A program made the position numbers and the translations under genes. From NCBI GenBank assembly GCA_014382915.1, contig JACNIV010000275.1, forward strand, positions 1 to 14,146: 14,146 nt of DNA, read 5' to 3'. Source of the DNA: Candidatus Cloacimonadota bacterium. Lineage in GTDB: Bacteria > Cloacimonadota > Cloacimonadia > Cloacimonadales > TCS61. The first letter of the stretch is position 1, and the number at the start of each line of letters is the position of its first letter. Below, piece after piece: positions 1 through 14,022 of the stretch. The notes under the pieces are model-generated. The model did not search any database. It saw nothing but the letters and a program-made list of their open reading frames with translations, and was not told where the DNA came from.

Positions 1-82
1 CTTGGGCTGGCTGCATAAAGTCATTAGCCAGCAATGTACAAACAAACAAACTTAGTACAAAAAGAATTAAAATTCTTTTCAT
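1..82 (-). CDS. N-terminus of a secreted protein, paralogue of the neighbouring T9SS cargo (partial)
   Basis: Only the first 27 codons lie in the window; the gene runs off the low-coordinate edge. It opens with a signal peptide (MKR, then a hydrophobic core ending TLLAND, likely cut after Ala19). It matches the first 27 residues of the 732-residue protein encoded at 273-2471 at 24 positions, and the two stretches agree at 74 of 82 bases. A strong Shine-Dalgarno (AAGGAGG, about 90-96) precedes the ATG by a normal spacing. It lies downstream of its paralogue but beyond a strong terminator-like hairpin (233-264), so it probably has its own promoter. By analogy it is an exported, possibly T9SS-sorted protein, but nothing beyond the signal peptide can be checked here. 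Confidence 0.8.
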   Translation of the reverse strand, partial: MKRILILFVLSLFVCTLLANDFMQPAQ

Positions 83-232: not shown

Positions 233-264
233 ATGAGAAACAGGGCATTTGCCCTGTTTCTCAT
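233..264 (-). terminator. Perfect 14-bp hairpin at the end of the large operon
   Basis: ATGAGAAACAGGGC and GCCCTGTTTCTCAT form a perfect 14-bp stem around a 4-base loop. The hairpin begins 8 bases after the stop codon of the 732-residue cargo gene. On the minus strand it is followed by TTCTATAACTTG, a short and interrupted T-rich tail. Position and stem quality fit an intrinsic terminator or a 3' mRNA-stabilising hairpin for the long upstream transcript. The weak U tract leaves termination efficiency open. Confidence 0.75.
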
Positions 265-272
265 ATTTGTGT

Positions 273-2471
273 TTATTTCATAAGGATCATTTTCTTTGTA
301 GAAACGTAGTTACCTGTTTTCATTTTATAGAAATAGATACCACTGGAAACAGACTTGTTGTTAGTATCTTTTCCATCCCAGGTAACATCATGGTTACCAG
401 CTGTCATCTGCTCGTTTATAAGAGTTTTAACTTTCTGCCCTTTTATATTGAACACTTCGATGGAAACCTTGCCAGCTTCTATCATGTTGTAAGCTATTGT
501 AGTAGATGGATTAAATGGATTGGGATAGTTCTGAGAAAGATGACCGGCAACAGGAGTTATAGTGTTTTCATGTATTGAAGTTGTATTTGGTTCCTGGAAT
601 TCAAGATCGAGAGCAGCGTAACGAAGTGAACTACCATTTATTGTACCACCACCGGGAGTTGCAACTGCAGCTGAGCCGTAATCATTATCGTCCATGAACA
701 CAAAGTGCAATTTGGCATGATAATTGCCAGATGTATTGCTGAGGATCTCAAGCTTATCACCAAGACAAGCGTCAACAGCTATCATATCTTCTAATTCCGG
801 TGCGTAGTTACCATCATAATGATTAACAGGATCAATTATATTGTCATTCGGATTGGCATTGAAGTATCTGATATCTGACCAGGTTTCACCATTATCGTCT
901 GAAATTATTATACAGAATTCAGATTCCTTTACCCAGCCATCGTATCCTGGTTCTTCATAAAATGCAGCCTGAAGTTTTGCGCTATCGTGCCATACACATA
1001 CAACCCAGTTTTCATTAGCAACCATCTTACAGATGCTCTCATGGAAATAAGCATCCTGCCAGCCACCCTCTGTGTTAAAGAACCAGCTCGGGCAGCTCAT
1101 AACAACAATAGGCCAGCCTTCATCGTCATACTCATCTACAATGCCGTCATCATTAAGGTCGAAGGCAACAGCCAGGTGATCATCACCAGGATCGGTATCC
1201 TGAACATCCAGATCGTAAAAACTGAATTCACCTGTTACAGTATCAAAAGTGAATATTTTAGGATACATATAAGCAGGCCAATATACTCCTTGGCTTATAT
1301 TCTCTGCCGAGTTATAATTTACACCGGTCATCCATTGTATTTTTGTATTATTGTCTGTGAATACACCATTGTAATGACTCATATCGTTTGAAGGAAGGAT
1401 GAACATTTCAGCAGCACTTCCATCATCATTTTCCCAAAGGGGAGCATAGGGAGGATTTTGATTCGTAGGATTATCCATCGGTTGTTTTAGTTGTTGTGTG
1501 TATTTTGTAAATGTATCACCGTAGTCATCACTATACATAGCCATCAGAGAATCCCCTGCACTACCGAAGAAAGCAACTTTTCCATCAACTTTACTTACGA
1601 TCAAGTCTTTATTTACACGGTCGATGTCATTATAGTGCATGTAATCAAAATATTCGAAAGTTTTCATAGTCCAATCAAGATGTGCTGAATATAATAGAGA
1701 GTCGGCATTGAAATCCGCATATCCATAAAGGCTGTTATAATTTGAGCCGGTATAGTTGTTTCCATAGGCATGAACTCTTCGATGTCCTGCTAGTGGAGAT
1801 GGTCCGATCCATACCTGAGGCCAGATAAATTCATCATCTGCATGTCCTGTAAGTGGTGCACTCATTTCAGGATTATCAAAAATTATAAATGGCTCTATCC
1901 AGTTTGATGGAGAGCCAGAAGCATGATACAGTTCATACGTGATGGAACTGTCATAGCTGTTATCCGGCTCAACTACAGAGTGCCAAATAATGAACGGGTC
2001 ACCTGTAACAGGATCGATTGCAATACCCGTGAAACCTTCACGATCGATAGTATAAACATTAGATGCACCACTGTAATAAAGAGTGCCATCCGGATTCAGA
2101 TAACTGTAGAATGCTCTTCGGTCTATGTCAGGAACTGATGTTTCTGAGCACATGTAACTTACAAACATTCCATCTGCCGGATAACCGTATGGCATTGAAA
2201 TCTCAGGTTGAAATCTTAAGTTGTGACCATTATAACTGAAAGGCATGTAATCATAGTACGAATCGATCAGGTAAGTGGTATTTTCACTATTACCATTTTG
2301 AATAAAGAAATACTCCGGTGCAGGATCTTGATCTCTAAATGCAGACCTGTAACCAAAGCGCATTCCTTGATAGTAGCCACCCTTGGCAATTTGTGCCGGC
2401 TGCATTAGGTCATTAGCCAGCAATGTACAAACAAACAAACTTAGAACTAAAAGAATAAAAATTCTTTTCAT
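273..2471 (-). CDS. Secreted 732-residue protein with Asp-box repeats and a C-terminal type IX sorting domain
   Basis: This is an exported, probably surface-attached or released protein of unknown substrate. Residues 1-19 are a signal peptide (cut likely TLLA|ND). The middle contains two Asp-box (BNR) motifs, SDDYGDTF (314-321) and SDDNGETW (524-531), typical of beta-propellers such as sialidases and related proteins. An Asp-rich EF-hand/dockerin-like loop (DLNDDGIVDEYDDEG) lies at 438-452. The last ~85 residues form a canonical T9SS type A sorting domain: NYPNPFNPSTT at 648-658, then VFNIKGQKVKTL, WDGKD, SGIYFYKM and a final KKMILMK. I see no catalytic signature, so glycosidase activity should not be assumed. 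It is the last gene of the operon, 35 bases after the PorV/Q-like gene, with a GGGAGG Shine-Dalgarno, and is followed by a 14-bp hairpin. A paralogue starts just beyond (1-82). Export class is well supported; function is unknown. Confidence 0.9.
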   Translation of the reverse strand: MKRIFILLVLSLFVCTLLANDLMQPAQIAKGGYYQGMRFGYRSAFRDQDPAPEYFFIQNGNSENTTYLIDSYYDYMPFSYNGHNLRFQPEISMPYGYPADGMFVSYMCSETSVPDIDRRAFYSYLNPDGTLYYSGASNVYTIDREGFTGIAIDPVTGDPFIIWHSVVEPDNSYDSSITYELYHASGSPSNWIEPFIIFDNPEMSAPLTGHADDEFIWPQVWIGPSPLAGHRRVHAYGNNYTGSNYNSLYGYADFNADSLLYSAHLDWTMKTFEYFDYMHYNDIDRVNKDLIVSKVDGKVAFFGSAGDSLMAMYSDDYGDTFTKYTQQLKQPMDNPTNQNPPYAPLWENDDGSAAEMFILPSNDMSHYNGVFTDNNTKIQWMTGVNYNSAENISQGVYWPAYMYPKIFTFDTVTGEFSFYDLDVQDTDPGDDHLAVAFDLNDDGIVDEYDDEGWPIVVMSCPSWFFNTEGGWQDAYFHESICKMVANENWVVCVWHDSAKLQAAFYEEPGYDGWVKESEFCIIISDDNGETWSDIRYFNANPNDNIIDPVNHYDGNYAPELEDMIAVDACLGDKLEILSNTSGNYHAKLHFVFMDDNDYGSAAVATPGGGTINGSSLRYAALDLEFQEPNTTSIHENTITPVAGHLSQNYPNPFNPSTTIAYNMIEAGKVSIEVFNIKGQKVKTLINEQMTAGNHDVTWDGKDTNNKSVSSGIYFYKMKTGNYVSTKKMILMK

Positions 2472-2506
2472 TTTTCCCTCCCTTAATTTTTTTGGTTTAT
2501 TTTACA

Positions 2507-3532
2507 CTAATAAGAAAATTTTAAGGATAATCTGTGAGGAGTTTTTAAGAAACTCTCAGTAAGATCTCCCATATTTGTATATGAATAATCAACATCAATT
2601 ATTGCAAAACTGGTAGGAATACTCCAGCCAAAACCAGCCGAATAACTTGCTGCATCATAATTAATTTGATACCCTGATCTAATTTTAAAAGTACCAATCT
2701 TATATTCCATTCCTATATTATAAGTTTCCTGTCTATCTACACAGTTATCAAGCTGAGCAGAAGCCAACAATAATTGATTATCCCTTGCATATAGATCCAT
2801 TGCAACTCCAAGAGAGAAACCCATCGGGATCTTAAATGGGAATTCATCCTGATCTTCATCGATCAATCCATCACCATCGTTATCTAAAAGATCGAAAGGA
2901 TCTTCATTTAAATGACCATCGCCATCCTCATCAACTTTATATTCAAGGTCAGGTCCAAAATTCTTGATTGCCATCCCAATTGTTAAATTGTTCCAACCTG
3001 TATTATATAACGAACCTATATCAACAGCAAAGCCATTCACATCATACTCATCAAGCTGTTCGCGCAAAAACTTGATATTTGTTCCAAACGAGAATTTATC
3101 AGTAAACGAATTAGAATACGTAATGCCCACCATTAAATCATAGCATGTAAAAAGCTCACCTGTGAACCCAAAAGTTTCTTCCTCGGTTACTTCCATATAA
3201 TCCATATGTAGCAAAGCTGTGCTGAGTGCAAAAGTTCCCATTGTTGTAATTTTCGATATAGCTACATATTCATAGCGAATACCGGCAAGCCATTCTGTAT
3301 GAGCAAACATAACTTGATTCTGTGATTTTAAGGCAAGACCGGCAGGATTCCAATACACCGATGAAATGTCATCAGAAACTGCTGTGTATGCCTCTCCCAT
3401 ACCAATAGCTCGAGCATCGATACCAATTTTTAGGAACTGAAGACCAGCAGTTCCTGATTTTGGAAATATATCGGCAAATATTATTCCGGGAATAACTGTA
3501 AGAATTATAAGGATAACAACACTTTTTTTCAT
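2507..3532 (-). CDS. PorV/PorQ-family outer-membrane beta-barrel protein
   Basis: 341 residues. A signal peptide (1-20, IIFA|D) is followed by the family's N-terminal hallmark: SGTAGLQFLKIGIDARAIGMG, then AVSDDISSVYWNPAGLA. The rest is alternating aromatic/hydrophobic strands ending in Tyr (LSLKFSY), as expected of a barrel. PorV in Bacteroidota is the shuttle that carries type IX substrates to the attachment complex; many FCB paralogues have no proven role. An unusual Asp-rich insertion at 201-228 holds two EF-hand/thrombospondin-3-like motifs, DEDGDGHLNED and DNDGDGLIDED, probably in a loop. The gene sits between two secreted proteins with sorting-type C-termini, which makes a cargo-handling role plausible. 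An AGAGG Shine-Dalgarno lies 9 bases before the ATG. Family assignment is good; T9SS function is inferred. Confidence 0.85.
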   Translation of the reverse strand: MKKSVVILIILTVIPGIIFADIFPKSGTAGLQFLKIGIDARAIGMGEAYTAVSDDISSVYWNPAGLALKSQNQVMFAHTEWLAGIRYEYVAISKITTMGTFALSTALLHMDYMEVTEEETFGFTGELFTCYDLMVGITYSNSFTDKFSFGTNIKFLREQLDEYDVNGFAVDIGSLYNTGWNNLTIGMAIKNFGPDLEYKVDEDGDGHLNEDPFDLLDNDGDGLIDEDQDEFPFKIPMGFSLGVAMDLYARDNQLLLASAQLDNCVDRQETYNIGMEYKIGTFKIRSGYQINYDAASYSAGFGWSIPTSFAIIDVDYSYTNMGDLTESFLKTPHRLSLKFSY

Positions 3533-3564
3533 AAATTTTACCTCTCATTCATAATTATGAGTTC

Positions 3565-3592
3565 GGTTCACAGGCTTTATTGCCCGTGAACC
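3565..3592 (-). other. Intercistronic hairpin between the 1027-residue protein gene and the PorV/Q-like gene
   Basis: GGTTCAC/GTGAACC pair (7 bp); inside them, after one mismatch, GGC/GCC pair (3 bp) around a 6-base loop. The hairpin begins about 12 bases after the stop codon at 3604. No T-run follows on the minus strand (it continues CGAACTCATAATTATG), so it is not a classical intrinsic terminator. A short palindrome, CATAATTATG (3550-3559), lies between it and the next start codon. The likely role is mRNA stabilisation or partial attenuation that sets the ratio of upstream to downstream products. This is the longest gap inside the operon (71 bases). Confidence 0.5.
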
Positions 3593-3603
3593 TGCATACT
3601 CAA

Positions 3604-6600
3604 TTACTTGATTATAACAAACTTACCAACCTTGTTATCCCCGGTTTTATGGTCTTTTACCGAGAATAGATACACACCGGCTGCAATGATTTGATTGTTT
3701 TTTGATAAAAGATCCCAGGATGCCATGCCTGATGCTGTGATATCACTTTTCTTTAGTTTATCTTTATTAAGAGCTGCTCCTACAGTGATAATATCTTCAC
3801 CTTCCGTTCCATGATGTACAACTTTATCAACAAGATCACCAGCGAGTGTATAGATTTTAATTGTACAATCCTCTGGTAAATTCACAAACCACAATCTTCG
3901 GCTTCTATCACCGGTGAAATCATCTTCCCTTCGTCCGTCGAATGCACTCTGTCCCACATAAGGATTTGGAACCACATAAATGTTATTCATATTAGTTTTT
4001 GCTGAAGGTCCAGGGAATATTATCTTCATATTTGCATCAGCGTCCCTGCCGGATTCGAGTGAACGAATCCACTGGGATGGGTAACCTCTATCCCAGGTTG
4101 TTACTGCTATGTAATACTCGATTCCTTTGGGCGGATAATTAATTATACGATGATAGTATCTTCGAGATAATCTTTTCTGTCTTATTTCCTCGATTTTTTC
4201 TGGTTCCTCTAAAACTACCGAGCTTACAAAACCGTCCAATGGAATAAGTCCTCTTGAATACAACTCAAGATAAACATCTTCACCAAGAGGCAATGCTTGA
4301 AGATTTGGATTAATAAAGTATAAAGCTTTGTCATTATCAGACCAATTTTCTAATCCTTCTACTGCCAACGCTGTTGCCCGTGTCTTTGTGTAGTCATAAA
4401 GAGGTTCACCAAATACATAATCATCCGCTATATCAAATGGGATTAACTCATAATGTTCGTTATAATGATAATAATCCAGATCATCTTCAATAATTTGTCT
4501 TCTATTGGGAAGTGATTTATTATAAGTACCAATTCCGATATCACCTTTATAATCTACATAAAACGTATCACCATGATTTACTTCATAATCAATTAAGTCC
4601 TGATCAGTTTCGTATTTATCCCATTTTCCTTTTTCTACCCAGTCTTCCTGAGATCCGCTTCCCGATCTGCCATAAAGTGTGTAACCCTGGAAATCATGCC
4701 TTAGCCTGAATGCAGTCCAAGGATTTATAATAGCATTTTCATTTCTGTTTTGAGGATTTCCGAGAGAATCATAAGGTGCATATTCTATTGGAAAATAACC
4801 ATATAAAGCTAATTGATCATCATATTTATCGATGTGGCTGTCAATATTTTCATATATTTCTTGCCATCCAACACCACGTTGAGGAACAAAATCTATATCA
4901 ATAGTAAATTCAGATTTATTATCCCAATACACTCCAATCGCATTGCCATTATCAATAAGATTAGCATACATTTGGGGATAGTCTGGTGGTTCTGGAGCCT
5001 GGTAATGAGGGAATGTATCAGGTTCCACAACTGTAGTTAAGGTTTGAGCTTCTCCATAAATAAATTTGGCAAATCCGGCAGTTTGCATTAATTCAGGAAT
5101 TGTTTCACCCGGGAATACGGCAATAACGATCTTCATTGTTTTCCCCGGGGCAAGGTTCCAGGAGCCTGCTGTTGGATTTGTCATGCCCAGCATATCACCA
5201 TAGAAAGCAAACAGGTATCTTGTATCTGTACCACCAGGAAAATGGTCCGGTTGATAATTTGGGTCAGCTTTAACATCAAAACAAAATTCATCATCAGGAT
5301 TTCTTCCCGTTAAAAGCCAGTATTTCTCATTTGGCGTATCATTGGCAGTTGTTGAAAAATAAGCCAATGGGTTCCAATCATCGGGACCCCAACCTACATC
5401 CCATGTCCAGCAGGCGAAAACTAATTGCTCGGGATCAGGTGTACAAACACGAGATCCAACAAATCCGGTGGTTAGTCCACCATCAGTATCTGCATCATAA
5501 GTATAGGCAAATTCGTATCCTTCGCCGGAAACATAACTACTGAGATCATCCGGTGCTATAGCAGATGCACCAAAAGATTGCGGACCAACATCGGAATCCA
5601 TATAAATACCCATAGCACAATCAAAAAGCGTATCGCCATACTCAATGTTCATATTTGTAATATTAAACTCTACGTAGCAGAGGTTTTTTATATATTCATA
5701 GCTCCACTGGTAGCTCATCTGACGAACACGAATATTAAGAGGAACGTGTGTATTCGAACCGGCGCTTGAGCTATAATCTCTATCCGGATCAGGATTTCCA
5801 TTCGGGAAAGGACTATAGTCGTAATAATATGATATAAAATCTTGTTCAGAAACAGGATAACCATCCTCATCAGCTATTCCATCTCCATCATCATCTTTTG
5901 TTTCTGAGAAATTATATAGATCATTTGAGTCATCACTCAAGTCTAAAAAACCCAAGGGATACCAGATAGACTGGTTGTCTTCATCGGTAATGATATCTGT
6001 TCCGTAAGGTCCTTGTGAATTATGAAGCCAGTCACCGCCATAAACAGAGAATACTGCAGGTAGTTCATCCCCTGCTCTGAATGGAAAAGCATATCCTACC
6101 GGATCTTCATCTATAAGATTATCATTGTCATCATCTACACCCTTTCTTTGCTCCCTTATAGAAGCTGAGATGATTTTGTCCTGGTAGTTATGAGCAGTAT
6201 ATTGCGCTCCCAGGTGAGAAGTTTCCAAAGGATTATATGCCGGCAAAAGTTCATTGATCCGGTGCCATCCGTCACAACCTATACTTACTAAAGTATCAAC
6301 TACTACAGGCAAAGTATCGTTCCACAGAGAATCACTTTCGAGAACATAATCATTATCTGCTACTGGTGGAAAGTGAAGCCAAAAGTACTTTCTTCCCAGG
6401 TGATCTCTTTTTACCTTTTTTGCACCAAACCATAATCCACCGAGGTATAGATAATCTATAGACGAACCTCCCGGATATTCAAGTGAAGGCCACTTCGGAT
6501 CTGTTTCACCTGAACCAAAGAATCCATAATTACTAACACGTAGCCAGATGTTTCCAATGTTGTGTACACCTGAAGTATCAAATTTCCTATTCCCTATTGT

Positions 6601-6687
6601 ACTATCTTTGTGCATAGAAAAAAGAAAGCTGCTAATGGTTAGAATAGCCAGCATAATAACAAGGAATCTAACATTTTTTAAATTCAT
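3604..6687 (-). CDS. Large secreted protein (1027 aa) with Asp-rich motifs and a sorting-type C-terminal domain
   Basis: No enzyme family is recognised. Residues 1-24 are a signal peptide (MNLKNVRFLVIMLAILTISS and a few more). The N-terminal segment at about 43-90 (NIGNIWLRVSNYGFFG ... YPGGSSIDYLYLGGLWFGAK) resembles a class of large secreted hypothetical proteins of FCB bacteria. Two calcium-type motifs are visible: DDDNDNLIDED (185-195) and DDDGDGIADED (265-275). The last ~127 residues look like a sorting/FlgD-Ig-type domain, with VVPNPYVGQ (about 905-913), KIYTLAGDLV, WDLLSKNNQ, AAGVYLFSV and a final KFVIIK. The PNPY form and a longer internal loop differ from the canonical YPNPFNPS domain downstream. 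The start at 6687 is preferred over an in-frame ATG at 6702 because only 6687 has a Shine-Dalgarno at good spacing, and it gives a cleaner signal peptide. It follows tonB by 17 bases. Exported status is likely; role unknown. Confidence 0.85.
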   Translation of the reverse strand: MNLKNVRFLVIMLAILTISSFLFSMHKDSTIGNRKFDTSGVHNIGNIWLRVSNYGFFGSGETDPKWPSLEYPGGSSIDYLYLGGLWFGAKKVKRDHLGRKYFWLHFPPVADNDYVLESDSLWNDTLPVVVDTLVSIGCDGWHRINELLPAYNPLETSHLGAQYTAHNYQDKIISASIREQRKGVDDDNDNLIDEDPVGYAFPFRAGDELPAVFSVYGGDWLHNSQGPYGTDIITDEDNQSIWYPLGFLDLSDDSNDLYNFSETKDDDGDGIADEDGYPVSEQDFISYYYDYSPFPNGNPDPDRDYSSSAGSNTHVPLNIRVRQMSYQWSYEYIKNLCYVEFNITNMNIEYGDTLFDCAMGIYMDSDVGPQSFGASAIAPDDLSSYVSGEGYEFAYTYDADTDGGLTTGFVGSRVCTPDPEQLVFACWTWDVGWGPDDWNPLAYFSTTANDTPNEKYWLLTGRNPDDEFCFDVKADPNYQPDHFPGGTDTRYLFAFYGDMLGMTNPTAGSWNLAPGKTMKIVIAVFPGETIPELMQTAGFAKFIYGEAQTLTTVVEPDTFPHYQAPEPPDYPQMYANLIDNGNAIGVYWDNKSEFTIDIDFVPQRGVGWQEIYENIDSHIDKYDDQLALYGYFPIEYAPYDSLGNPQNRNENAIINPWTAFRLRHDFQGYTLYGRSGSGSQEDWVEKGKWDKYETDQDLIDYEVNHGDTFYVDYKGDIGIGTYNKSLPNRRQIIEDDLDYYHYNEHYELIPFDIADDYVFGEPLYDYTKTRATALAVEGLENWSDNDKALYFINPNLQALPLGEDVYLELYSRGLIPLDGFVSSVVLEEPEKIEEIRQKRLSRRYYHRIINYPPKGIEYYIAVTTWDRGYPSQWIRSLESGRDADANMKIIFPGPSAKTNMNNIYVVPNPYVGQSAFDGRREDDFTGDRSRRLWFVNLPEDCTIKIYTLAGDLVDKVVHHGTEGEDIITVGAALNKDKLKKSDITASGMASWDLLSKNNQIIAAGVYLFSVKDHKTGDNKVGKFVIIK

Positions 6688-6694
6688 ATTACGT

Positions 6695-6700
6695 CTCCCC
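6695..6700 (-). promoter_or_regulatory. Ribosome binding site that decides the start of the 1027-residue protein
   Basis: GGGGAG lies 7 bases before the ATG at 6687. The alternative in-frame ATG at 6702 is preceded only by A/T bases (GAATTAAATTAAAG) and would add MGRRN before the signal peptide. The internal start is therefore the better choice. Confidence 0.6.
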
Positions 6701-6704
6701 ATCT

Positions 6705-7340
6705 TTAATTTAATTCAAAATCTATAGGGAATACTACCCAACAGGCAACAGCCCGTCCCCCGCTCTTGGCAGGTTGAAATTCCCACTTTTTTACAGCATC
6801 AATTGCTATTTCATCCAAACCACCAGGTCCTGCTTGTAACGATTTTACAATTTCAATAGCGCCTACAGTACCATCGGCAAATACTTCAACTTCAAGAACA
6901 ACTTGACCTTCAATTCCAGCGTTTTTCGCAAATTGTGAATATTCAGGTCTAGTTTGTCTTATTGGAAAAGGTGCATCTTCGTAAATAACGAATTTATCAG
7001 TTTTTCCAAGAACTCTAGTTTGTATATCATCATAGGGATCGAGTGTGGTTTTGTCGATTGTATCGATCACTTCGATATCTTCGTCATCATCACCTTCCAG
7101 ATCATCTTCCACTACAATTACCACAACAGGTTTCACTGTCTCTTCCGGTGGTTTGATCTTTTCCCTGATCTCAGGTGGAATATCTATTGCTTCTGTTATA
7201 TTTATTACCCTTTTAAATGGTTTTATTTCAATTTTGGGAGATACAATAAACGCAAAAAGAAGAATCAGGATCGCCAGGCTGACCGACTTATCGTAATAAG
7301 TTTGAGCAATATCTTTCCAATCAATATTTTCTTTATGCAT
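6705..7340 (-). CDS. tonB: TonB energy-transducing protein
   Basis: 211 residues. It has a short cytoplasmic N-terminus, one membrane anchor (about 19-35, SLAILILLFAFIVS), a periplasmic linker, and a TonB C-terminal domain (about 123-211) with PEYSQFAKNAGIEGQVVLEV, FADGTVGAIEIVKS, AIDAVKKWEFQPA and FPIDFEL. It links the ExbB/ExbD proton-driven motor to outer-membrane receptors, most obviously the one encoded upstream. Only a short Pro/Glu/Lys stretch is present (55-71); it is followed by a strongly acidic block, EDDLEGDDDEDIE (78-90), where many TonB proteins keep Pro-Lys/Pro-Glu repeats. A GTG at 7346 lies immediately after the exbD stop and is an alternative start. ATG 7340 is preferred because AAAAGG (7350-7355) sits 9 bases before it. 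Confidence 0.93.
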   Translation of the reverse strand: MHKENIDWKDIAQTYYDKSVSLAILILLFAFIVSPKIEIKPFKRVINITEAIDIPPEIREKIKPPEETVKPVVVIVVEDDLEGDDDEDIEVIDTIDKTTLDPYDDIQTRVLGKTDKFVIYEDAPFPIRQTRPEYSQFAKNAGIEGQVVLEVEVFADGTVGAIEIVKSLQAGPGGLDEIAIDAVKKWEFQPAKSGGRAVACWVVFPIDFELN

Positions 7341-7346
7341 TGCCAC

Positions 7347-7754
7347 CTACCTTTTCAGCTTAGCTTCAAAATATACACGGAGAGCATTTGCTTCCCGCAA
7401 TTGATTTAAGATGTCGGACATGATGCCATAATTCGTTTCTCTGTCTGTCCTGAAGCAAGCGAGCAAATTAAAATCTTCCGATAGTTTTTTCTGCATAACC
7501 CATTTAACATCGGGAATTGAAACTATAAAATCATCGATCGAGATGATACCGTTTCGATTCACGTAAATAGTTGAAGAGTGAGTGCGCGGTATCTTTTCTA
7601 TACTGGCAGCTCGCGGCATACTTACCGGTAAGCCTTTTTCTCTAACGAACACTGTGGAAACCATAAAAAACAATAGAAGTAAAAAGGCAATGTCAGACAT
7701 GGAAGCTGTAGGGATCATCGTTTCAGGTTTGTTGGTTTTCTTTATTTTTGCCAT
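7347..7754 (-). CDS. exbD: ExbD/TolR-family biopolymer transport protein (second copy)
   Basis: 135 residues with the ExbD plan: basic cytoplasmic tail, single helix (MIPTASMSDIAFLLLLFFMVST, about 13-34) carrying the essential membrane Asp (D21), and a periplasmic domain ending in LNQLREANALRVYFEAKLKR. The Asp is the proton-carrying residue that works against ExbB. It differs clearly from the ExbD just upstream, especially in the periplasmic domain, so the two are diverged paralogues. The AGGA of its Shine-Dalgarno overlaps the stop of the preceding exbD; ATG 7754 has 7-base spacing and is chosen over ATG 7757 and GTG 7760. tonB follows 6 bases after its stop. Confidence 0.93.
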   Translation of the reverse strand: MAKIKKTNKPETMIPTASMSDIAFLLLLFFMVSTVFVREKGLPVSMPRAASIEKIPRTHSSTIYVNRNGIISIDDFIVSIPDVKWVMQKKLSEDFNLLACFRTDRETNYGIMSDILNQLREANALRVYFEAKLKR

Positions 7755-7763
7755 CATCACTTC

Positions 7764-8180
7764 CTAATTTGTTGATAGAGATATCTTTTCTGCACCAGAC
7801 GCCTGGATCTTATCAAGAGCCATAACCATAAACTGGTATTTGCTTTTTCTATCTGTCTTTAATGAAATAACCATATCGGGATTTTGAGTAACAAGCCTTT
7901 TGATCTTGGCTTCTAATTGATTCATGGGAACCTGTTCTTCGATACCACCGGAAATAACGGTTACCAAACCTTCTTTATCAATCCAGACTTTTGTAAGGTT
8001 CTCATCCTTCAGTTTCACCTTTTTCATATCTGCTTGTGCGACTGCCGGTAAAACTATACCAAGACCTTTTTTAATATCGAACTTGGTTGTTGACAGAAAG
8101 AAAACAAGCAACAGAAAAGCCACATCAGACATTGATGCAGTGGGAATTCCACCCATATCTTTTCTTTTTCTGCGAAACAT
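7764..8180 (-). CDS. exbD: ExbD/TolR-family biopolymer transport protein (first copy)
   Basis: 138 residues. It has a basic N-terminus (MFRRKRKDMGG), one membrane helix (IPTASMSDVAFLLLVFFLST, about 12-31) with the conserved Asp at D19, then a periplasmic domain (VAQADMKKVKLKDENLTKVWI ... ALDKIQASGAEKISL). It partners ExbB in the inner-membrane stator. It starts 9 bases after the exbB stop with an AAGGTGG Shine-Dalgarno. Paired exbD genes next to exbB are common in FCB bacteria, and the two products may form a heterodimer. Confidence 0.94.
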   Translation of the reverse strand: MFRRKRKDMGGIPTASMSDVAFLLLVFFLSTTKFDIKKGLGIVLPAVAQADMKKVKLKDENLTKVWIDKEGLVTVISGGIEEQVPMNQLEAKIKRLVTQNPDMVISLKTDRKSKYQFMVMALDKIQASGAEKISLSTN

Positions 8181-8189
8181 TAATCCACC

Positions 8190-9008
8190 TTATTTGGATT
8201 CAACAAGGGTTTCTACGAGTTTTTCTGAACCTCTCTGCATATCCATTACAAGCCCATCGACCATTCCCAGGAACATATTGTTGAAAAATTGCATGGGAAT
8301 AGCAACGGCAAGACCGGCTGCTGTTGTGATAAGTGCAATCTGGATACCGGTAGCAACAATTGTGGGCTCAACTTCACCTGCAGCAGCAATATCGCGGAAA
8401 GCTTTGATCATACCAACGATTGTTCCAAAGAAACCGAACATTGGTGCAAGGTTTATAGTTGTGGAAAGAGGAATAAAACCTTTTTCCAGGAAAGCCATTT
8501 CGATAACACCAGCATTTTCGATAGCCTTTTCAACAGCATCAATACCTTTATCAACTTTTAAAAGACCCAGATGCATAACAGCTGCAACAGGTCCTTTGGT
8601 TTCTTCACAAAGTCTGATTGCTTCATCATATTTTTTATCTGCAACCAAAGGGATCAACTTATCAAGAAAATCTTTCAGGTTAATTTTAGCATAGTTCAAG
8701 GAAATTATTTTCCAGATAACTGTAGCCAAACCCCAGATAACAAGAAGAAGAATTGGATACATAACAAATCCACCCTGAATGAATATGTCCACAAGGCCGC
8801 TACCTACGATCTTACGGGCAAACATTTCCAGGCCACCAGACTCGGGTGCTTCCTCAAATGGCAATTCTTCTTCAACAACAGCTTCTTCAGTAAGAGTTTC
8901 TTCAGCTATAGCTTCACCTGTTGATTCTTCCTGAGCAAAAGCCATAACTGTAAATGTCAAATTAACTAAAGCTATTAATGAGATTATTATCAAAAACCTT
9001 TTTCTCAT
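8190..9008 (-). CDS. exbB: ExbB/TolQ/MotA-family proton channel protein
   Basis: 272 residues, longer than the E. coli ExbB of about 244. The extra length is N-terminal: a probable signal peptide (1-25, cut after AFA) and a Glu-rich periplasmic stretch (27-57). Helices follow at about 78-103 (FIQGGFVMYPILLLVIWGLA), 180-205 and 220-245. The family core is clear: LAPMFGFFGTIVGMIKAF (187-204) and ALITTAAGLAVAIP (225-238), including the channel threonines. It forms the pentameric channel that powers TonB. AGGAGG lies 8-9 bases before the ATG. The gene follows the receptor gene by 44 bases with no terminator between. Confidence 0.95.
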   Translation of the reverse strand: MRKRFLIIISLIALVNLTFTVMAFAQEESTGEAIAEETLTEEAVVEEELPFEEAPESGGLEMFARKIVGSGLVDIFIQGGFVMYPILLLVIWGLATVIWKIISLNYAKINLKDFLDKLIPLVADKKYDEAIRLCEETKGPVAAVMHLGLLKVDKGIDAVEKAIENAGVIEMAFLEKGFIPLSTTINLAPMFGFFGTIVGMIKAFRDIAAAGEVEPTIVATGIQIALITTAAGLAVAIPMQFFNNMFLGMVDGLVMDMQRGSEKLVETLVESK

Positions 9009-9052
9009 TACTATTTCCTCCTAATTTTTATACATCCTTATTTTATTTGATA

Positions 9053-12000
9053 TTACCAAAGGAAGGCTAAACCAAACGAAATAGTTCTGCCAACCGATAC
9101 ATTCGATGGATTTCTGTCTAATGCTGAATATACTGAAGAAGTACTCGGATCAATATAACCATCATTATTGAAATCCAACTCTGTACCACTGTTAAATGGG
9201 TTTCCAGTTTTTCCATAAACTGTATTATGGTTTGGTCTATTAAACAGATTATTTATATTTGCATAAAACTTCAACTTCATATTCTTCCCAAAACTAAAGT
9301 TCTTGGAAAATTTCAAATTAGCATTTTCGGTAAAGGGTCTTGTTGCACTGTTAGTTTCAAGAACAGCGTCATCTTCACTAATTGGAGTATAAGGTGCGCC
9401 CGAAGAAATTCCATAGAGGAAATTAATAGCAAAATCATGAAGCGGAAGAACTGTTTCCGTGAATGGAATATAGAACTCTTCTCCAGCGCCTACTTTGAAA
9501 ACAAGGTTCAAATTGAAGCTATGCCTTAAATCCCATGTCAATGGAAACTCTCGCAAGCTTTCATCACCAGTAGTAGTAGTCTCGGAATGATTACCATATG
9601 CCCATGATAGCGAATATGAAGCTGATCCCTGGATAAAGTTTGAAAGTAATTTCTGAAGGTTCAAATCAAGTCCGCGGATACTGCCGTAATCTTCCGAAAT
9701 ATATTCATTCCATTTTAATGAAGGATCTGCAGGATCAACCTTTTCCTCGGTGCTTACATAATTATAAATATTTTTGTAATAAGTGGTAATATCCATTATA
9801 TAATCTTCATGAAGCTGATATTGCAAACCTGCCTCATAAGTGATAGTAGTTTGGTCTTTGAGTTCCGGGTTACCTACTACTATATCTGCACCTGGGTTTA
9901 CTATAACATCCTGTGGTCTTCCAGTTGTAAAGATATATTGCATCTGCGGTAACTGCCTTTGATAATTGTAAACAAAATGTAATACACTTCTTTCTGAAAT
10001 TGGATGAGAAACACCTAAACGAGGTGAAATCATGTATTGTGGTTTACTGAATCGATCACTGATAGTCTCATGGTAGTCAGCTGCACTGATATATTTCGCA
10101 TACGCTTCAGGGTACAATTCTGGAGGCGGCACTATCAGAATACCTGATCCAGGAGGATCTTCAATCTTATAAGTACTTTCATTAATTGGATTATCGGGAT
10201 CGATCGATTCCAGATATGATCCGCTGTAACTTGCTGTTTTAATATCATAATCCCCACCAAGATACCAGACATCGCATCTGATACCAGCATTTATGATCAA
10301 GCCTTCCCATACCATTGCATCCTGAATATATAAACCGCCTTGCCAGGGATCAGCTTCATAGCCATCTGTTAAGCCAGAAGCAGCAATCGTAGCTGCTAAA
10401 AGGTCTTCTCTTGCATAGAAATCTAAGCCACCTGCTGGAACAATAATTTCTTCTTCATTGATAATAATTGTGTCTCCTGCAGCATAAGATTCTTCAGGAA
10501 CGCAATCTTGCAGATAATCTTCATATCGAGCATCTGATAGGTCCCAGGGATTTCTCCATTGATCTTTTTTAATATGATGCTTGATTACTTCAAATCCACT
10601 CTTCAGTCCATGAGTTTCATTCACTTGATATTCAACATCTGATCTTAATTGATAAACCTGATTTTCATCATCTATGTATGTGCCCCAAACAGTTCCCGGT
10701 TCAACAAATGGCACAGCAATTACAGTGCCTTCTCCGGTTTCATAAACCCATGCATAATCTTCTACATTACTGACTATATTATTATCTTCAGCTGTTAAGT
10801 AGAGAATTCCATCAGTATTTCCAAGTTGATTATCACCATAAAGATCAAACGCATCAGAATCAGGATTAAGTGTAAACCAGTCATCTCTGGAAATGTCTCG
10901 AGGAGCTTGATTTACAATATTTTCGTACATGCTTGCTTTTACTTTTATATTGATCTGTGATCCTATTGTGTGATCGTATGTAGTAATATACTGACGTTGA
11001 TCACTAGAAGTTTTTGCATAATGTTCAAGGGCATATCTCCAACCATGACTAAATGGAAGATGATCATAACTATCACCCCGTATAGCAAATGTGAGATTCT
11101 GGCGTTCATTAAATTTATATTTTAGTTTCAAGTTTGCATTATAATCATTATAGTTTCTATCACCCAGATCGAATCCAATAAAATCCTCTCTGCCTTCATA
11201 TGGTGTGTATGGTTCATAATCGGACCAACTACTAACCAATCCCTCAATCTCATCATAAGGTTTTAAATCGTAATAATCATGATACCTGGTATCATGCCAG
11301 TTTCCTGCGCAGTTAAAATAAAAAGTAAATTTATCTCTCAGGGATGAAACAAATGAAGTAAAAACAGGACCACCCATCGCAAACTTAAAAATATCGCTAT
11401 TCGAATTATCGAAAGAATCAATCAAATGATCTGTATTCAGTTCGATTTTTCCAGAATAATCACGTGATCCACTTTTAGTTACAATGTTTACCATACCCGA
11501 TTGAGCATTACCATATTCAGCAGTAAGTCCACCTGTCATTACATCCATATTTGCAATTGCATCTGTGTCTATAGTAAGGGCTGCCCCGCCATCTACAGGG
11601 TCAGAAACCGACATACCATCCACAGTATATGCCACTTCGTTTGACCTGCCACCACGAATATGAATTTCACCATTAGTAAGAGTCACACCAGCCTGGATCG
11701 CAATAATATCTTCAATATCGGAAACCGAGATATCCTCGATTGTCTCAGAAGTTACTGTATTTCCCGATGAAGTTTTCATCTTCTGCACCATTTGCACACT
11801 AGCTTCAACTACGCTGTACCCTTCAATTTCTACAGCTTGTGTTTTAAGCTGGAAATTTTGCATTGTAGTAAGGTCAAGATTAATTACTACTCCAACAGTT
11901 TTACCCGGGCGAAAACCTCCACGCATACAAAAAACATCGTATTTGCCAGGTGGAATATTGATAATATAATATGAACCGTTTTCTTTGGCCCGTATACCGG

Positions 12001-12160
12001 CAATAAGAGTCTCACCATCCATAACAGTTATATTTGCAAAAGGGATAGGATTTCCCTCATTATCAGTAACTTTCCCGGCAAGTTTACCGGTGGTACCAGC
12101 AGTTAATGAAGTAGATATAATAAAAGTTACTAACAGCAAAAAAATAATTCTTCTTTGCAT
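9053..12160 (-). CDS. TonB-dependent outer-membrane receptor with N-terminal carboxypeptidase-regulatory-like domain
   Basis: 1035 residues. A signal peptide (1-21) is followed by a CarboxypepD_reg-like beta-sandwich (about 25-108: GKLAGKVTDNEGNPIPFANI ... INIPPGKYDVF). The plug domain is at about 130-230, with IHIRGGRSNEVAYTVDGMSV (167-186) and GGLTAEYGNAQSGMVNIVTK (210-229). A beta-barrel fills the rest and ends in the aromatic signature FGLAFLW. This is a SusC/RagA-like architecture, but no SusD-like lipoprotein gene is nearby and the substrate is unknown. An Asp-rich loop (DFNNDGYID, about 996-1004) lies near the C-terminus. ATG 12160 is chosen over a TTG at 12163 because GGGGGAG sits 6 bases before it. 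Encoding the receptor directly ahead of exbB-exbD-exbD-tonB suggests a dedicated energiser. Confidence 0.94.
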   Translation of the reverse strand: MQRRIIFLLLVTFIISTSLTAGTTGKLAGKVTDNEGNPIPFANITVMDGETLIAGIRAKENGSYYIINIPPGKYDVFCMRGGFRPGKTVGVVINLDLTTMQNFQLKTQAVEIEGYSVVEASVQMVQKMKTSSGNTVTSETIEDISVSDIEDIIAIQAGVTLTNGEIHIRGGRSNEVAYTVDGMSVSDPVDGGAALTIDTDAIANMDVMTGGLTAEYGNAQSGMVNIVTKSGSRDYSGKIELNTDHLIDSFDNSNSDIFKFAMGGPVFTSFVSSLRDKFTFYFNCAGNWHDTRYHDYYDLKPYDEIEGLVSSWSDYEPYTPYEGREDFIGFDLGDRNYNDYNANLKLKYKFNERQNLTFAIRGDSYDHLPFSHGWRYALEHYAKTSSDQRQYITTYDHTIGSQINIKVKASMYENIVNQAPRDISRDDWFTLNPDSDAFDLYGDNQLGNTDGILYLTAEDNNIVSNVEDYAWVYETGEGTVIAVPFVEPGTVWGTYIDDENQVYQLRSDVEYQVNETHGLKSGFEVIKHHIKKDQWRNPWDLSDARYEDYLQDCVPEESYAAGDTIIINEEEIIVPAGGLDFYAREDLLAATIAASGLTDGYEADPWQGGLYIQDAMVWEGLIINAGIRCDVWYLGGDYDIKTASYSGSYLESIDPDNPINESTYKIEDPPGSGILIVPPPELYPEAYAKYISAADYHETISDRFSKPQYMISPRLGVSHPISERSVLHFVYNYQRQLPQMQYIFTTGRPQDVIVNPGADIVVGNPELKDQTTITYEAGLQYQLHEDYIMDITTYYKNIYNYVSTEEKVDPADPSLKWNEYISEDYGSIRGLDLNLQKLLSNFIQGSASYSLSWAYGNHSETTTTGDESLREFPLTWDLRHSFNLNLVFKVGAGEEFYIPFTETVLPLHDFAINFLYGISSGAPYTPISEDDAVLETNSATRPFTENANLKFSKNFSFGKNMKLKFYANINNLFNRPNHNTVYGKTGNPFNSGTELDFNNDGYIDPSTSSVYSALDRNPSNVSVGRTISFGLAFLW

Positions 12161-12258: not shown

Positions 12259-13080
12259 TTAATTTCTTTTATCCCACTCACCTGTCAAGTATTTAGTACT
12301 TGCCAGAAATTTTGCTTTCTCCTTTTCCCATGTTTCAATATCTTCACTGACCATAAATTCATCAGTTTGCCAGGTCATTTTAAAGCCACTTATCAATGCT
12401 GAAACAGCATCATCGAAATTCACAGATTCCTTCAATATTTCATTGATAGCGATAGTTTTTTTTGAAAGATACACTGCCAATCTTTTGCGTTGCTCATTAC
12501 TCAGGTTTGGTATAACATACGCTAATTTACTTTGATTTTTCTGTAACAGGATCGATCCGTGTTGTAAGAAAGTGTTATCTTTTCGAACCTGTGCGCTCCC
12601 TACTATCTTTTTTTTCTGATAATTTAACTCGAATCTGGAGCTACTGGAGAAACACGGATTTACTGCCTGTCTTTGATGATGGGAAGAAAGTTCACTCTTT
12701 TCAAATTCTACTTCTATTCCCAGGTTTTTTAATCCTTGTGCAAGTGCTCGGCTGATCTCGGAATACGACTCCAGAATATTACCACTCAAGTTCTCTGAAA
12801 TTGGGGCTATTACAGAATAGGTTACTTCTTCATCGTGCAGAATAGCTCTACCCCCAGTGGGTCGGCGAACATATCCAAAACCGATTTTTTTTAATGCCTC
12901 TAAATCGATCTCTTTAGAGAATTCCTGGTTATAACCAAATGAGACTGCAGGAGGATCCCACCCGTAAAAGCGTATCGTAGGCAATGAACGCTTCTCCTTC
13001 ACTCCAATGAAAATGGCTTCATCGATCGCCATATTCATGGCAGGTGACATTTTACCGGTGTTTAAAATCCTCCACTTCAT
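12259..13080 (-). CDS. lipM: Octanoyltransferase/lipoate ligase-family protein, LipM-like
   Basis: 273 residues, close to the length of Bacillus LipM (about 278) and similar along its whole length as I recall that sequence: SPAMNMAIDEA (12-22), RFYGWDPPAVSFGY (37-50), RRPTGGRAILHDEEVTYSV (72-90), NPCFSSSSRFEL (141-152), KIVGSAQVR (158-166), LQHGSILL (172-179) and a C-terminal KYLTGEWDKR. Cys143 aligns with the LipM acyl-thioester cysteine, and Lys158 is the conserved ligand-binding lysine. LipM moves octanoate from acyl-carrier protein to a lipoyl domain, the first step in making lipoyl cofactor. The cysteine favours LipM over a true LplA ligase, but substrate choice is not proven. The start at 13080 has AAGGAG 10 bases upstream. 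It is functionally unrelated to the genes downstream. Confidence 0.85.
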   Translation of the reverse strand: MKWRILNTGKMSPAMNMAIDEAIFIGVKEKRSLPTIRFYGWDPPAVSFGYNQEFSKEIDLEALKKIGFGYVRRPTGGRAILHDEEVTYSVIAPISENLSGNILESYSEISRALAQGLKNLGIEVEFEKSELSSHHQRQAVNPCFSSSSRFELNYQKKKIVGSAQVRKDNTFLQHGSILLQKNQSKLAYVIPNLSNEQRKRLAVYLSKKTIAINEILKESVNFDDAVSALISGFKMTWQTDEFMVSEDIETWEKEKAKFLASTKYLTGEWDKRN

Positions 13081-13343: not shown

Positions 13344-14022
13344 TTACTCGGCAACTACGCCACCGATTTTTATAGGTTCTGTTTCATCTGGTTTTTCATC
13401 ATTCTTTTGATCTATTTCTGTACTTATTCCACGTTCTTTTTTCAGGTCTTCATAAAACAGAACCATAGAAGTCATCATATATGGTTGAAGCCAGAGAAAG
13501 CCGATTCCGAACGATAATACGCTCAGGAACATCCAGCCGATGAAGCTCAAATTGAGCATAAATAATTTACTTTTATACCCGTACATCATTTCCTTGCTTT
13601 TACGAAGTGCTTCCGAAATCCCAATATCGGGATTGTCTATAAACAGAAAGAAAGCCATGCTGTAACCGTACGCTGCTACCGGGAATTATAAGTAGTAAAC
13701 TCCACAAGAAAACATACAGGTTCATCAACCAATATAAACCCAGACTTCTTCCAAAAAGTCCCAAATTTGGACCGGAGAAATTGAAAGCCTTGAAAATAAA
13801 ATTAAAATCAGTAATATTTTTTCGTACCAGCTTCACAAAGAAAAGTAAAAATCCATACATGAGTGGTCCCATAATGGCAATAAACGCAATCTGCCCCAAG
13901 CCTGGAATGGACGCAATTACTGAAATGATTCCCATATAAATAAGCACAGCAACGATTGCATTTCCCCAACTACCTGCCAATGTCTCTCTGGCAGCTTTTC
14001 TAATTTCAAAATTCTGTTTCAT
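13344..14022 (-). pseudogene. DUF975-family integral membrane protein, interrupted by a frameshift
   Basis: Two overlapping reading frames together make one DUF975-type protein of about 225 residues. The first (from ATG 14022, AAGGAG 5 bases upstream) gives MKQNFEIRKAARETLAGSWG, several membrane helices and SLLLIIPG. It then loses the family sequence and stops at 13600. The family sequence resumes in the other frame as AAYGYSMAFFLFIDNPDIG, SEALRKSKEMM, FIGWMFLSVLSFGIGFLW and VLFYEDLK, ending at 13344. The switch lies at about 13675-13680. Family members usually read IPGII(K/A)AY here, so loss of 5 bases (or an equivalent change) would explain it. Possible causes are a genuine mutation, an assembly error, or (less likely) programmed frameshifting. 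The function of the family is unknown. Confidence 0.8.

Follow-up and report, generated by a model that had tools for sequence, protein, structure and literature searches.

The stretch of DNA analysed here (the window) is the whole of contig C275, 14,146 bases, in the draft genome of a Candidatus Cloacimonadota bacterium (G000; 1.98 Mb, 78% complete). It carries a cluster of eight minus-strand genes encoding a TonB-dependent receptor (TBDR), ExbB, two copies of ExbD, TonB, an exported 1027-residue protein (P1027), an outer-membrane barrel of the PorV/PorQ family (here PorV-like) and an exported 732-residue cargo protein (cargo A) with a type IX sorting domain. We give about even odds to the reading that this cluster forms a conserved outer-membrane uptake module, powered by TonB and with type-IX-displayed partners, in which the specificity half is exchanged together and the motor half is conserved.

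The eight genes, first listed in a preliminary description of this DNA, are borne out by profile matches. The TBDR (9053..12160) combines a carboxypeptidase-regulatory-like N-terminal domain (CarboxypepD_reg, 48.1 bits) with a Plug domain (42 bits, cut-off 23.9), and the profile search returned no barrel model among its Pfam matches at E 0.001. ExbB (8190..9008; MotA_ExbB), the two ExbD copies (7764..8180 and 7347..7760) and TonB (6705..7340; TonB_C) score 91.5, 77.4, 63.8 and 67 bits, all above the curated cut-offs of 22.9, 25.4, 25.4 and 24.6; TonB starts with ATG at 7340 or possibly with GTG at 7346. P1027 (3604..6687) has a predicted beta supersandwich fold at residues 46-564 (4996..6552) and a PorZ-like C-terminal domain at residues 897-1027 (3604..3999). 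The PorV-like barrel (2507..3532) is followed by cargo A (273..2471), whose AlphaFold2 model (mean pLDDT 84.6) matches beta-propellers. In the open reading frame (ORF) table, the successive gaps from TBDR to cargo are 44, 9, 3, 0 or 6 (according to which TonB start is used), 17, 71 and 35 bases.

Gene order across the phylum

Relatives of P1027 occur in 113 of the 124 genomes of the phylum, and in 66 of the 70 with at least 90% completeness and at most 5% contamination. We fetched 100 regions around these relatives, drawing on 90 of the 113 genomes with a match. Of these regions, 63 show the whole span, and exclusion of six second copies of P1027 (L059, L084, L088, L089, L126, and L127), whose genomes have the cluster on a different contig (in G026 the contig end truncates it), leaves 57 main loci. 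Since the ORF caller at times chose an antisense frame, the synteny counts were based on tblastn instead.

The order TBDR-ExbB-ExbD-ExbD-TonB-P1027-PorV is found in 57/57 main loci, and a cargo gene is also present after PorV in 53 of them; the order was checked by script in these 53 and read from the region rows in the four loci lacking cargo. Loss of the order in relatives had been named beforehand as the outcome that would speak against a joint system, and the order is retained phylum-wide. Its conservation is beyond chance: the run is a phylum-wide Cloacimonadota cluster, not an artefact, and it amounts to more than a TonB operon.

The genes are also closely packed in the relatives, with median gaps of 24, 10, 9, 7, 18, 10, and 30 bases at the seven junctions. 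Short gaps throughout the run would equally be expected from co-expression only, that is, from a general TonB motor placed in a long operon with abundant outer-membrane proteins, where linkage would serve dosage or timing without any joint function. We consider this explanation unlikely in the light of the exchange and co-variation described below.

Exchange and co-variation around the motor

Compared with G076, a genome of the same genus, the window is a mosaic. The lipoate-protein ligase gene on the left flank (12259..13080, minus strand; LplA-B_cat, 128.2 bits), which lies outside the module and marks the border of the exchanged stretch, is 97.2% identical in DNA between the two genomes, the gap between it and the TBDR gene 95.8%, and the motor genes 98.0% (ExbB), 98.3% and 97.8% (the two ExbD). 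The corresponding values are 61.6% for TBDR, 62.1% for P1027, 69.3% for PorV and 55.0% for cargo. TonB, at 84.4%, is itself composite: its first ~117 residues are near-identical and divergence starts shortly before TonB_C (residues 133-212), so that alignment and sliding identity place the diverged part at 6705..6995.

Trees give the same division. The motor and the ligase unite the window with G076 (100/100), the pair standing next to genus g18 in the motor tree (96/96). TBDR (100/100), P1027 (100/100), PorV (100/99) and cargo (100/100) unite the window with g18, and the TBDR, P1027 and cargo of G076 group with g1, g3 or g17. Judged from these alignments and trees, TBDR on one side and P1027, PorV and cargo on the other have been changed around a conserved motor. 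TBDR and the P1027-PorV pair thus stayed together in the exchange despite the motor genes lying between them, which argues against linkage for co-expression only.

Contig C24 of the same draft genome matches the right flank of the G076 cluster over its bases 1-1779 (97.9% identity), so C275 and C24 are probably opposite ends of one array. An assembly chimera behind the mosaic is thought unlikely from the sequences at hand, because the ligases of the window and g18 are only 58-61% identical as proteins, so that a false join at the ligase-TBDR border would have had little to act on, and because C24 returns to close identity with G076 at the right flank. We also weighed against a chimera that the protein cluster containing the window P1027 represents two contigs, of which the longer runs to 55,250 bases. 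On C24, the gene past the cargo is matched most closely in G100 of g18 (69.5% DNA identity over a stretch including the gene); it has weak relatives in L079, L081, L143, and L149, whereas the G076 region has none.

Co-variation extends the link between receptor and partners beyond this pair of genomes. It was evaluated with 59 loci (1,711 pairs), reduced to 49 for permutation and 26 for flank controls, and loci with cut or miscalled ORFs as well as nine second-copy loci were omitted. With motor divergence removed, TBDR identity correlates with that of PorV (0.83), P1027 (0.78) and cargo (0.54) over the 59 loci; by this measure, the cargo is more loosely tied to the receptor than P1027 and PorV are. 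The permutation test on 49 loci gave 0.70 for TBDR-P1027 and 0.72 for TBDR-PorV (p 0.0005), and 0.68 and 0.72 when the window was omitted. In the 26 loci with flank controls, a flanking AIR-synthase-like gene reached 0.16 with TBDR and 0.34 with P1027 given the motor. When the motor, TonB, and both flank controls were taken into account, TBDR-P1027 remained at 0.65 and TBDR-PorV at 0.89 (p 0.001). The co-expression explanation is again at a disadvantage here, as TBDR, which does not adjoin P1027 or PorV, co-varies with both, whereas TonB, which adjoins P1027, does not.

The genes that differ between the window and G076 all encode predicted outer-membrane or exported proteins, and the inner-membrane motor genes are unchanged. 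This would also be expected if exposure to phages or predators, rather than mutual fit, drove variation and swaps, and the tandem amplification of the cargo and its replacement alone in G114 are in line with such surface diversification. However, the periplasmic C-terminal part of TonB differs too, and the TBDR-P1027 correlation, which replacement of the two independently of each other would weaken, persists at 0.65-0.70; we regard diversification as a somewhat poorer candidate than co-expression.

Several points weigh against the uptake-module reading. Only one recent swap was observed, and cargo is missing in 4 of the 57 main loci (G050, G102, G103, and G105). The cargo of G114 is only 35% like those of G111 and G112, while the P1027 proteins are 84-85% alike, which indicates that cargo was replaced alone. 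The C-terminus of the window TonB is no closer to g18 (64-68%) than to G076 (71%), and TonB does not co-vary with TBDR phylum-wide (-0.22 in 59 loci, -0.20 in 49), the value within family f2 alone being 0.26 (p 0.0165); for these reasons we do not claim the TonB C-terminal domain as a member of the exchanged set. The flanking PfkB gene also correlates, given the motor, with TBDR (0.57) and P1027 (0.58) in the 26 loci, so the co-variation is in part general, though the module nonetheless stands out. Lastly, unrelated WD-repeat propellers score almost as high against the cargo A model, and propeller or supersandwich folds do not show function.

Motor, barrel and displayed proteins

The motor had been taken as dedicated to the receptor of the cluster, which the genome counts do not bear out. 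Plug-domain proteins were matched in 120 of 121 genomes, with 1-8 in each (six in the genome of the window). ExbD matches number five in many genomes and two in eight genomes of family f13. Four relatives that are 93-98% complete (G110, G113, G114, and G120) have a single MotA/TolQ/ExbB-family match, two ExbD matches and two or three Plug matches apiece. The sole ExbB-family match and both ExbD lie within the cluster in G113 and G114; in G110, ExbB and both ExbD stand side by side on one contig, and in G120, ExbB is on the contig of P1027. The motor must therefore serve all receptors found in these four genomes, and it appears to be general, probably serving several receptors. One ExbB-family and two ExbD matches are also what a housekeeping motor would show under the co-expression explanation.

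The type IX translocon SprA was matched in 113 of 121 genomes (108 above cut-off), including all 70 well-completed ones, and reaches 203.6 bits in the genome of the window. Control genomes had no match to either GldM or GldL, so that the result for GldM (0/121 genomes) and for GldL (1/121, below cut-off at 19.5 versus 68.3 bits) does not prove their absence; judged by a motif, the lone GldL-matching ORF resembles a chemotaxis coiled coil. These counts, and four SprA-bearing genomes with just one ExbB-family match, would suit an ExbB-ExbD-ExbD-TonB motor that also powers type IX export or the surface handling of cargo in place of GldL-GldM, and two papers describe GldLM as homologous to ExbBD (PMC10202324, PMC8986121). 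One motor would then energise both uptake and the type IX export or handling of the receptor's own partners, making a type IX system free of GldL-GldM and a single swappable surface machine. We think this combined role improbable, and the second job for the motor no less so: the missing GldM and GldL matches carry the limit just given, TonB does not co-vary with P1027, the listed SprA sites in the 121 genomes lie away from the cluster (except for shared contigs in a few f13 genomes), and a motor serving several TBDRs needs no second job.

The PorV-like barrel was correctly placed at the level of its family (PorV_fam, 201.5 bits, cut-off 90), though not as an equivalog, its scores with the PorV, PorQ, and PorV2 models (77.7, 105.4, and 72.3 bits) all being below the cut-offs of 250, 220, and 325. 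PorV-family matches are present on six other contigs of the same genome (C16, C334, C308, C33, C80, and C92), so the cluster barrel is a further family member. The C16 protein outscores it with the PorV model (173.1 versus 77.7 bits), still below 250. On C16 (L015), a PorV-like barrel precedes an M6i-like gene; on C334 (L017), a PorQ-like barrel follows a gene with an M6i-like end; and on C308 (L018), a PorU-like C-terminal piece is followed, at a distance of 6 bases, by a PorV2-like barrel. All three are under the equivalog cut-offs. In this genome, barrels may commonly be paired with cognate cargo.

P1027 and the barrel share an acidic loop of the type D.D.DG..DED, with invariant residues, found by motif search once in P1027 (5863..5895) and twice in the PorV-like protein (2852..2932). 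The pattern, which was written after inspection of the window, is present in 99/99 P1027 proteins longer than 900 residues, in 84/86 cluster PorV proteins and in 0/704 other ORFs of at least 200 residues from the same regions; none was found in the surroundings of the genome's six other PorV-family loci. The loop may bind calcium and bridge P1027 and the PorV-like protein.

A Pfam search with P1027 gave no match, and its family has no Pfam name. Comparison with solved structures by sequence gave no match up to E 1, and the top Foldseek row, an insulin-receptor family, was set aside (TM about 0.1, root-mean-square deviation 27). Homology was found with a surface-protein family of the FCB group, with source names from Ignavibacteria, Bacteroidota, Fidelibacterota, and Neomarinimicrobiota (569 columns, hhalign probability 100, E 5e-102); unlike P1027, most of these proteins are 600-820 residues long among the best 120 of 2,965 hits. 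The alignment of this family was built from 27 of the 120 listed hits (2,965 in all). A search of viral contigs for the family matched 13 stretches, none of them a relative, and a family missing from the VIA-align rows was not counted as evidence of absence. Second P1027 copies without an adjoining motor cluster occur in L059, L074, L084, L089, L109, L126, L127, and L143; in L074, L084, L089, and L109, the second copy is followed by an unannotated gene of ~412-428 residues, the one in L074 having no Pfam match.

The sorting domain assigned to cargo A is confirmed as type A (285..527; TIGR04183, 44.4 bits, cut-off 23). A hairpin of 14 pairs downstream of cargo A (233..264) had been considered the end of the run. 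It cannot be so regarded, given the head of another cargo on the same strand beyond it (cargo B, 2..82), truncated by the contig end, whose 27 residues are 89% identical to cargo A. C24 bears a full cargo with 82% protein identity to cargo A and the tail of another (81%), and the intercopy gap there also contains a hairpin. A remnant like the 3' end of cargo A follows the full cargo on C24 (L009, 4335-4575), as if cargo genes had recombined. A third cargo type, with 71% protein identity to cargo A, is found on C232, where a cargo unit of 2,274 bases forms a perfect tandem repeat (L003, 1-3223; 477/477 and 409/409 compared bases identical), which may represent genuine identical genes in tandem or a loop in the assembly. 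Of the coupling of uptake to surface display suggested in the preliminary description, the link between receptor and displayed proteins is independently backed by joint allele exchange and co-variation, and the private motor and the hairpin end find no support.

Among neighbouring genes, AIR-synthase-like and PfkB-type kinase genes are often found upstream of TBDR (41 and 40 loci under the length thresholds applied; e.g. L080, 16783-18714). BtuF/FecCD-type transport genes lie near the cluster in L077, L080, L082, L095, L097, L098, L111, and L118, convergent to cargo where read. As such genes occur in at least 8 of the 100 regions, which often end early, and neither the window nor seven relative loci gave an Rfam match at the gathering score, uptake of vitamin B12 or siderophores as the general function of the cluster is unsupported. 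A DUF975-type gene in the window (13344-14022, minus strand) consists of two overlapping short ORFs, the first matching only family positions 1-119 of 243, and may be broken or contain a sequencing error. L158 (JAUWNO010000124.1), titled Armatimonadota, bears the Cloacimonadota cluster, and its title is probably wrong.

Proposed working and relation to known systems

In the uptake-module reading, the cluster would be a two-part machine, with a conserved proton motor and a matched set in which the receptor, P1027 and the PorV-type barrel are joined, less tightly, by the cargo. ExbB-ExbD-ExbD-TonB would supply force, probably for several receptors, and TBDR would import the ligand. P1027 and the propeller cargo would be exported by the type IX system through SprA, and then capture ligand at the cell surface. 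P1027 would be collected by its own PorV-type barrel and retained via its PorZ-like C-terminal domain, in the manner of PorZ with PorQ or SprB with SprF, and would present ligand to the receptor. The cargo would broaden the captured range, a role that its amplification fits. P1027 is probably bound to the adjoining barrel, to judge from these comparisons; P1027 and cargo would lie at the surface, in contact with the receptor, and the folds lead us to guess at a carbohydrate-type ligand.

Uptake loci of the SusC/SusD type in Bacteroidota offer one comparison. As in these loci, a TBDR with a carboxypeptidase-regulatory-like N-terminal domain stands with exported partners of carbohydrate-related folds. 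Unlike them, the cluster contains no SusD (SusD_RagB was matched in only 2/121 genomes of the phylum, and in the Bacteroides ihuae control), none of the seven NCBIfam matches of the TBDR at E 0.001 is to a SusC/RagA model, the partners bear a type A sorting domain or a PorZ-like C-terminus, and the motor genes lie inside the locus. With neither a SusD-family lid nor a SusC/RagA-family receptor found, we do not class the cluster as Sus-type, though it is possibly Sus-like in its working; we class it as TonB-dependent uptake with type-IX-displayed partners, differing from Sus-type loci.

P1027 and its barrel resemble the PorQ-PorZ, PorV-PorU and SprF-SprB pairs in that a barrel of the PorV/PorQ family (or FadL type) stands with a protein bearing a C-terminal domain, which in P1027 matches that of PorZ; the C308 and C334 barrels, which follow genes with PorU-like and M6i-like ends, share this arrangement. 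PorZ is described as kept on PorQ, a C-terminal-domain protein held by its cognate barrel (PMC10202324), and SprB as held by SprF (PMC9143113). The cluster pair differs in the equivalog scores of its barrel, in the supersandwich of P1027 and in its place in a TonB operon. The motor has the same components as the Xanthomonas-type ExbB-ExbD-ExbD-TonB systems, which also have two ExbD. It differs in its phylum-wide fixed linkage to P1027, a PorV-like barrel and, mostly, a type IX cargo.

TonB uptake partners and type IX cargo are known mostly from Bacteroidota, and our literature searches found no paper pairing Cloacimonetes with type IX secretion or Cloacimonadota with TonB. Here, a neighbouring phylum has the receptor, the motor and proteins predicted to be displayed by the type IX system in one locus without SusD. 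The apparently matched exchange of receptor and partners around a fixed motor suggests an undescribed uptake machine, and the natural exchange is a ready-made genetic test of which parts match. The cluster also points to a large unannotated protein family common to other phyla of the FCB group, and it gives added weight to the question of how type IX secretion is driven where no GldL-GldM pair is found.

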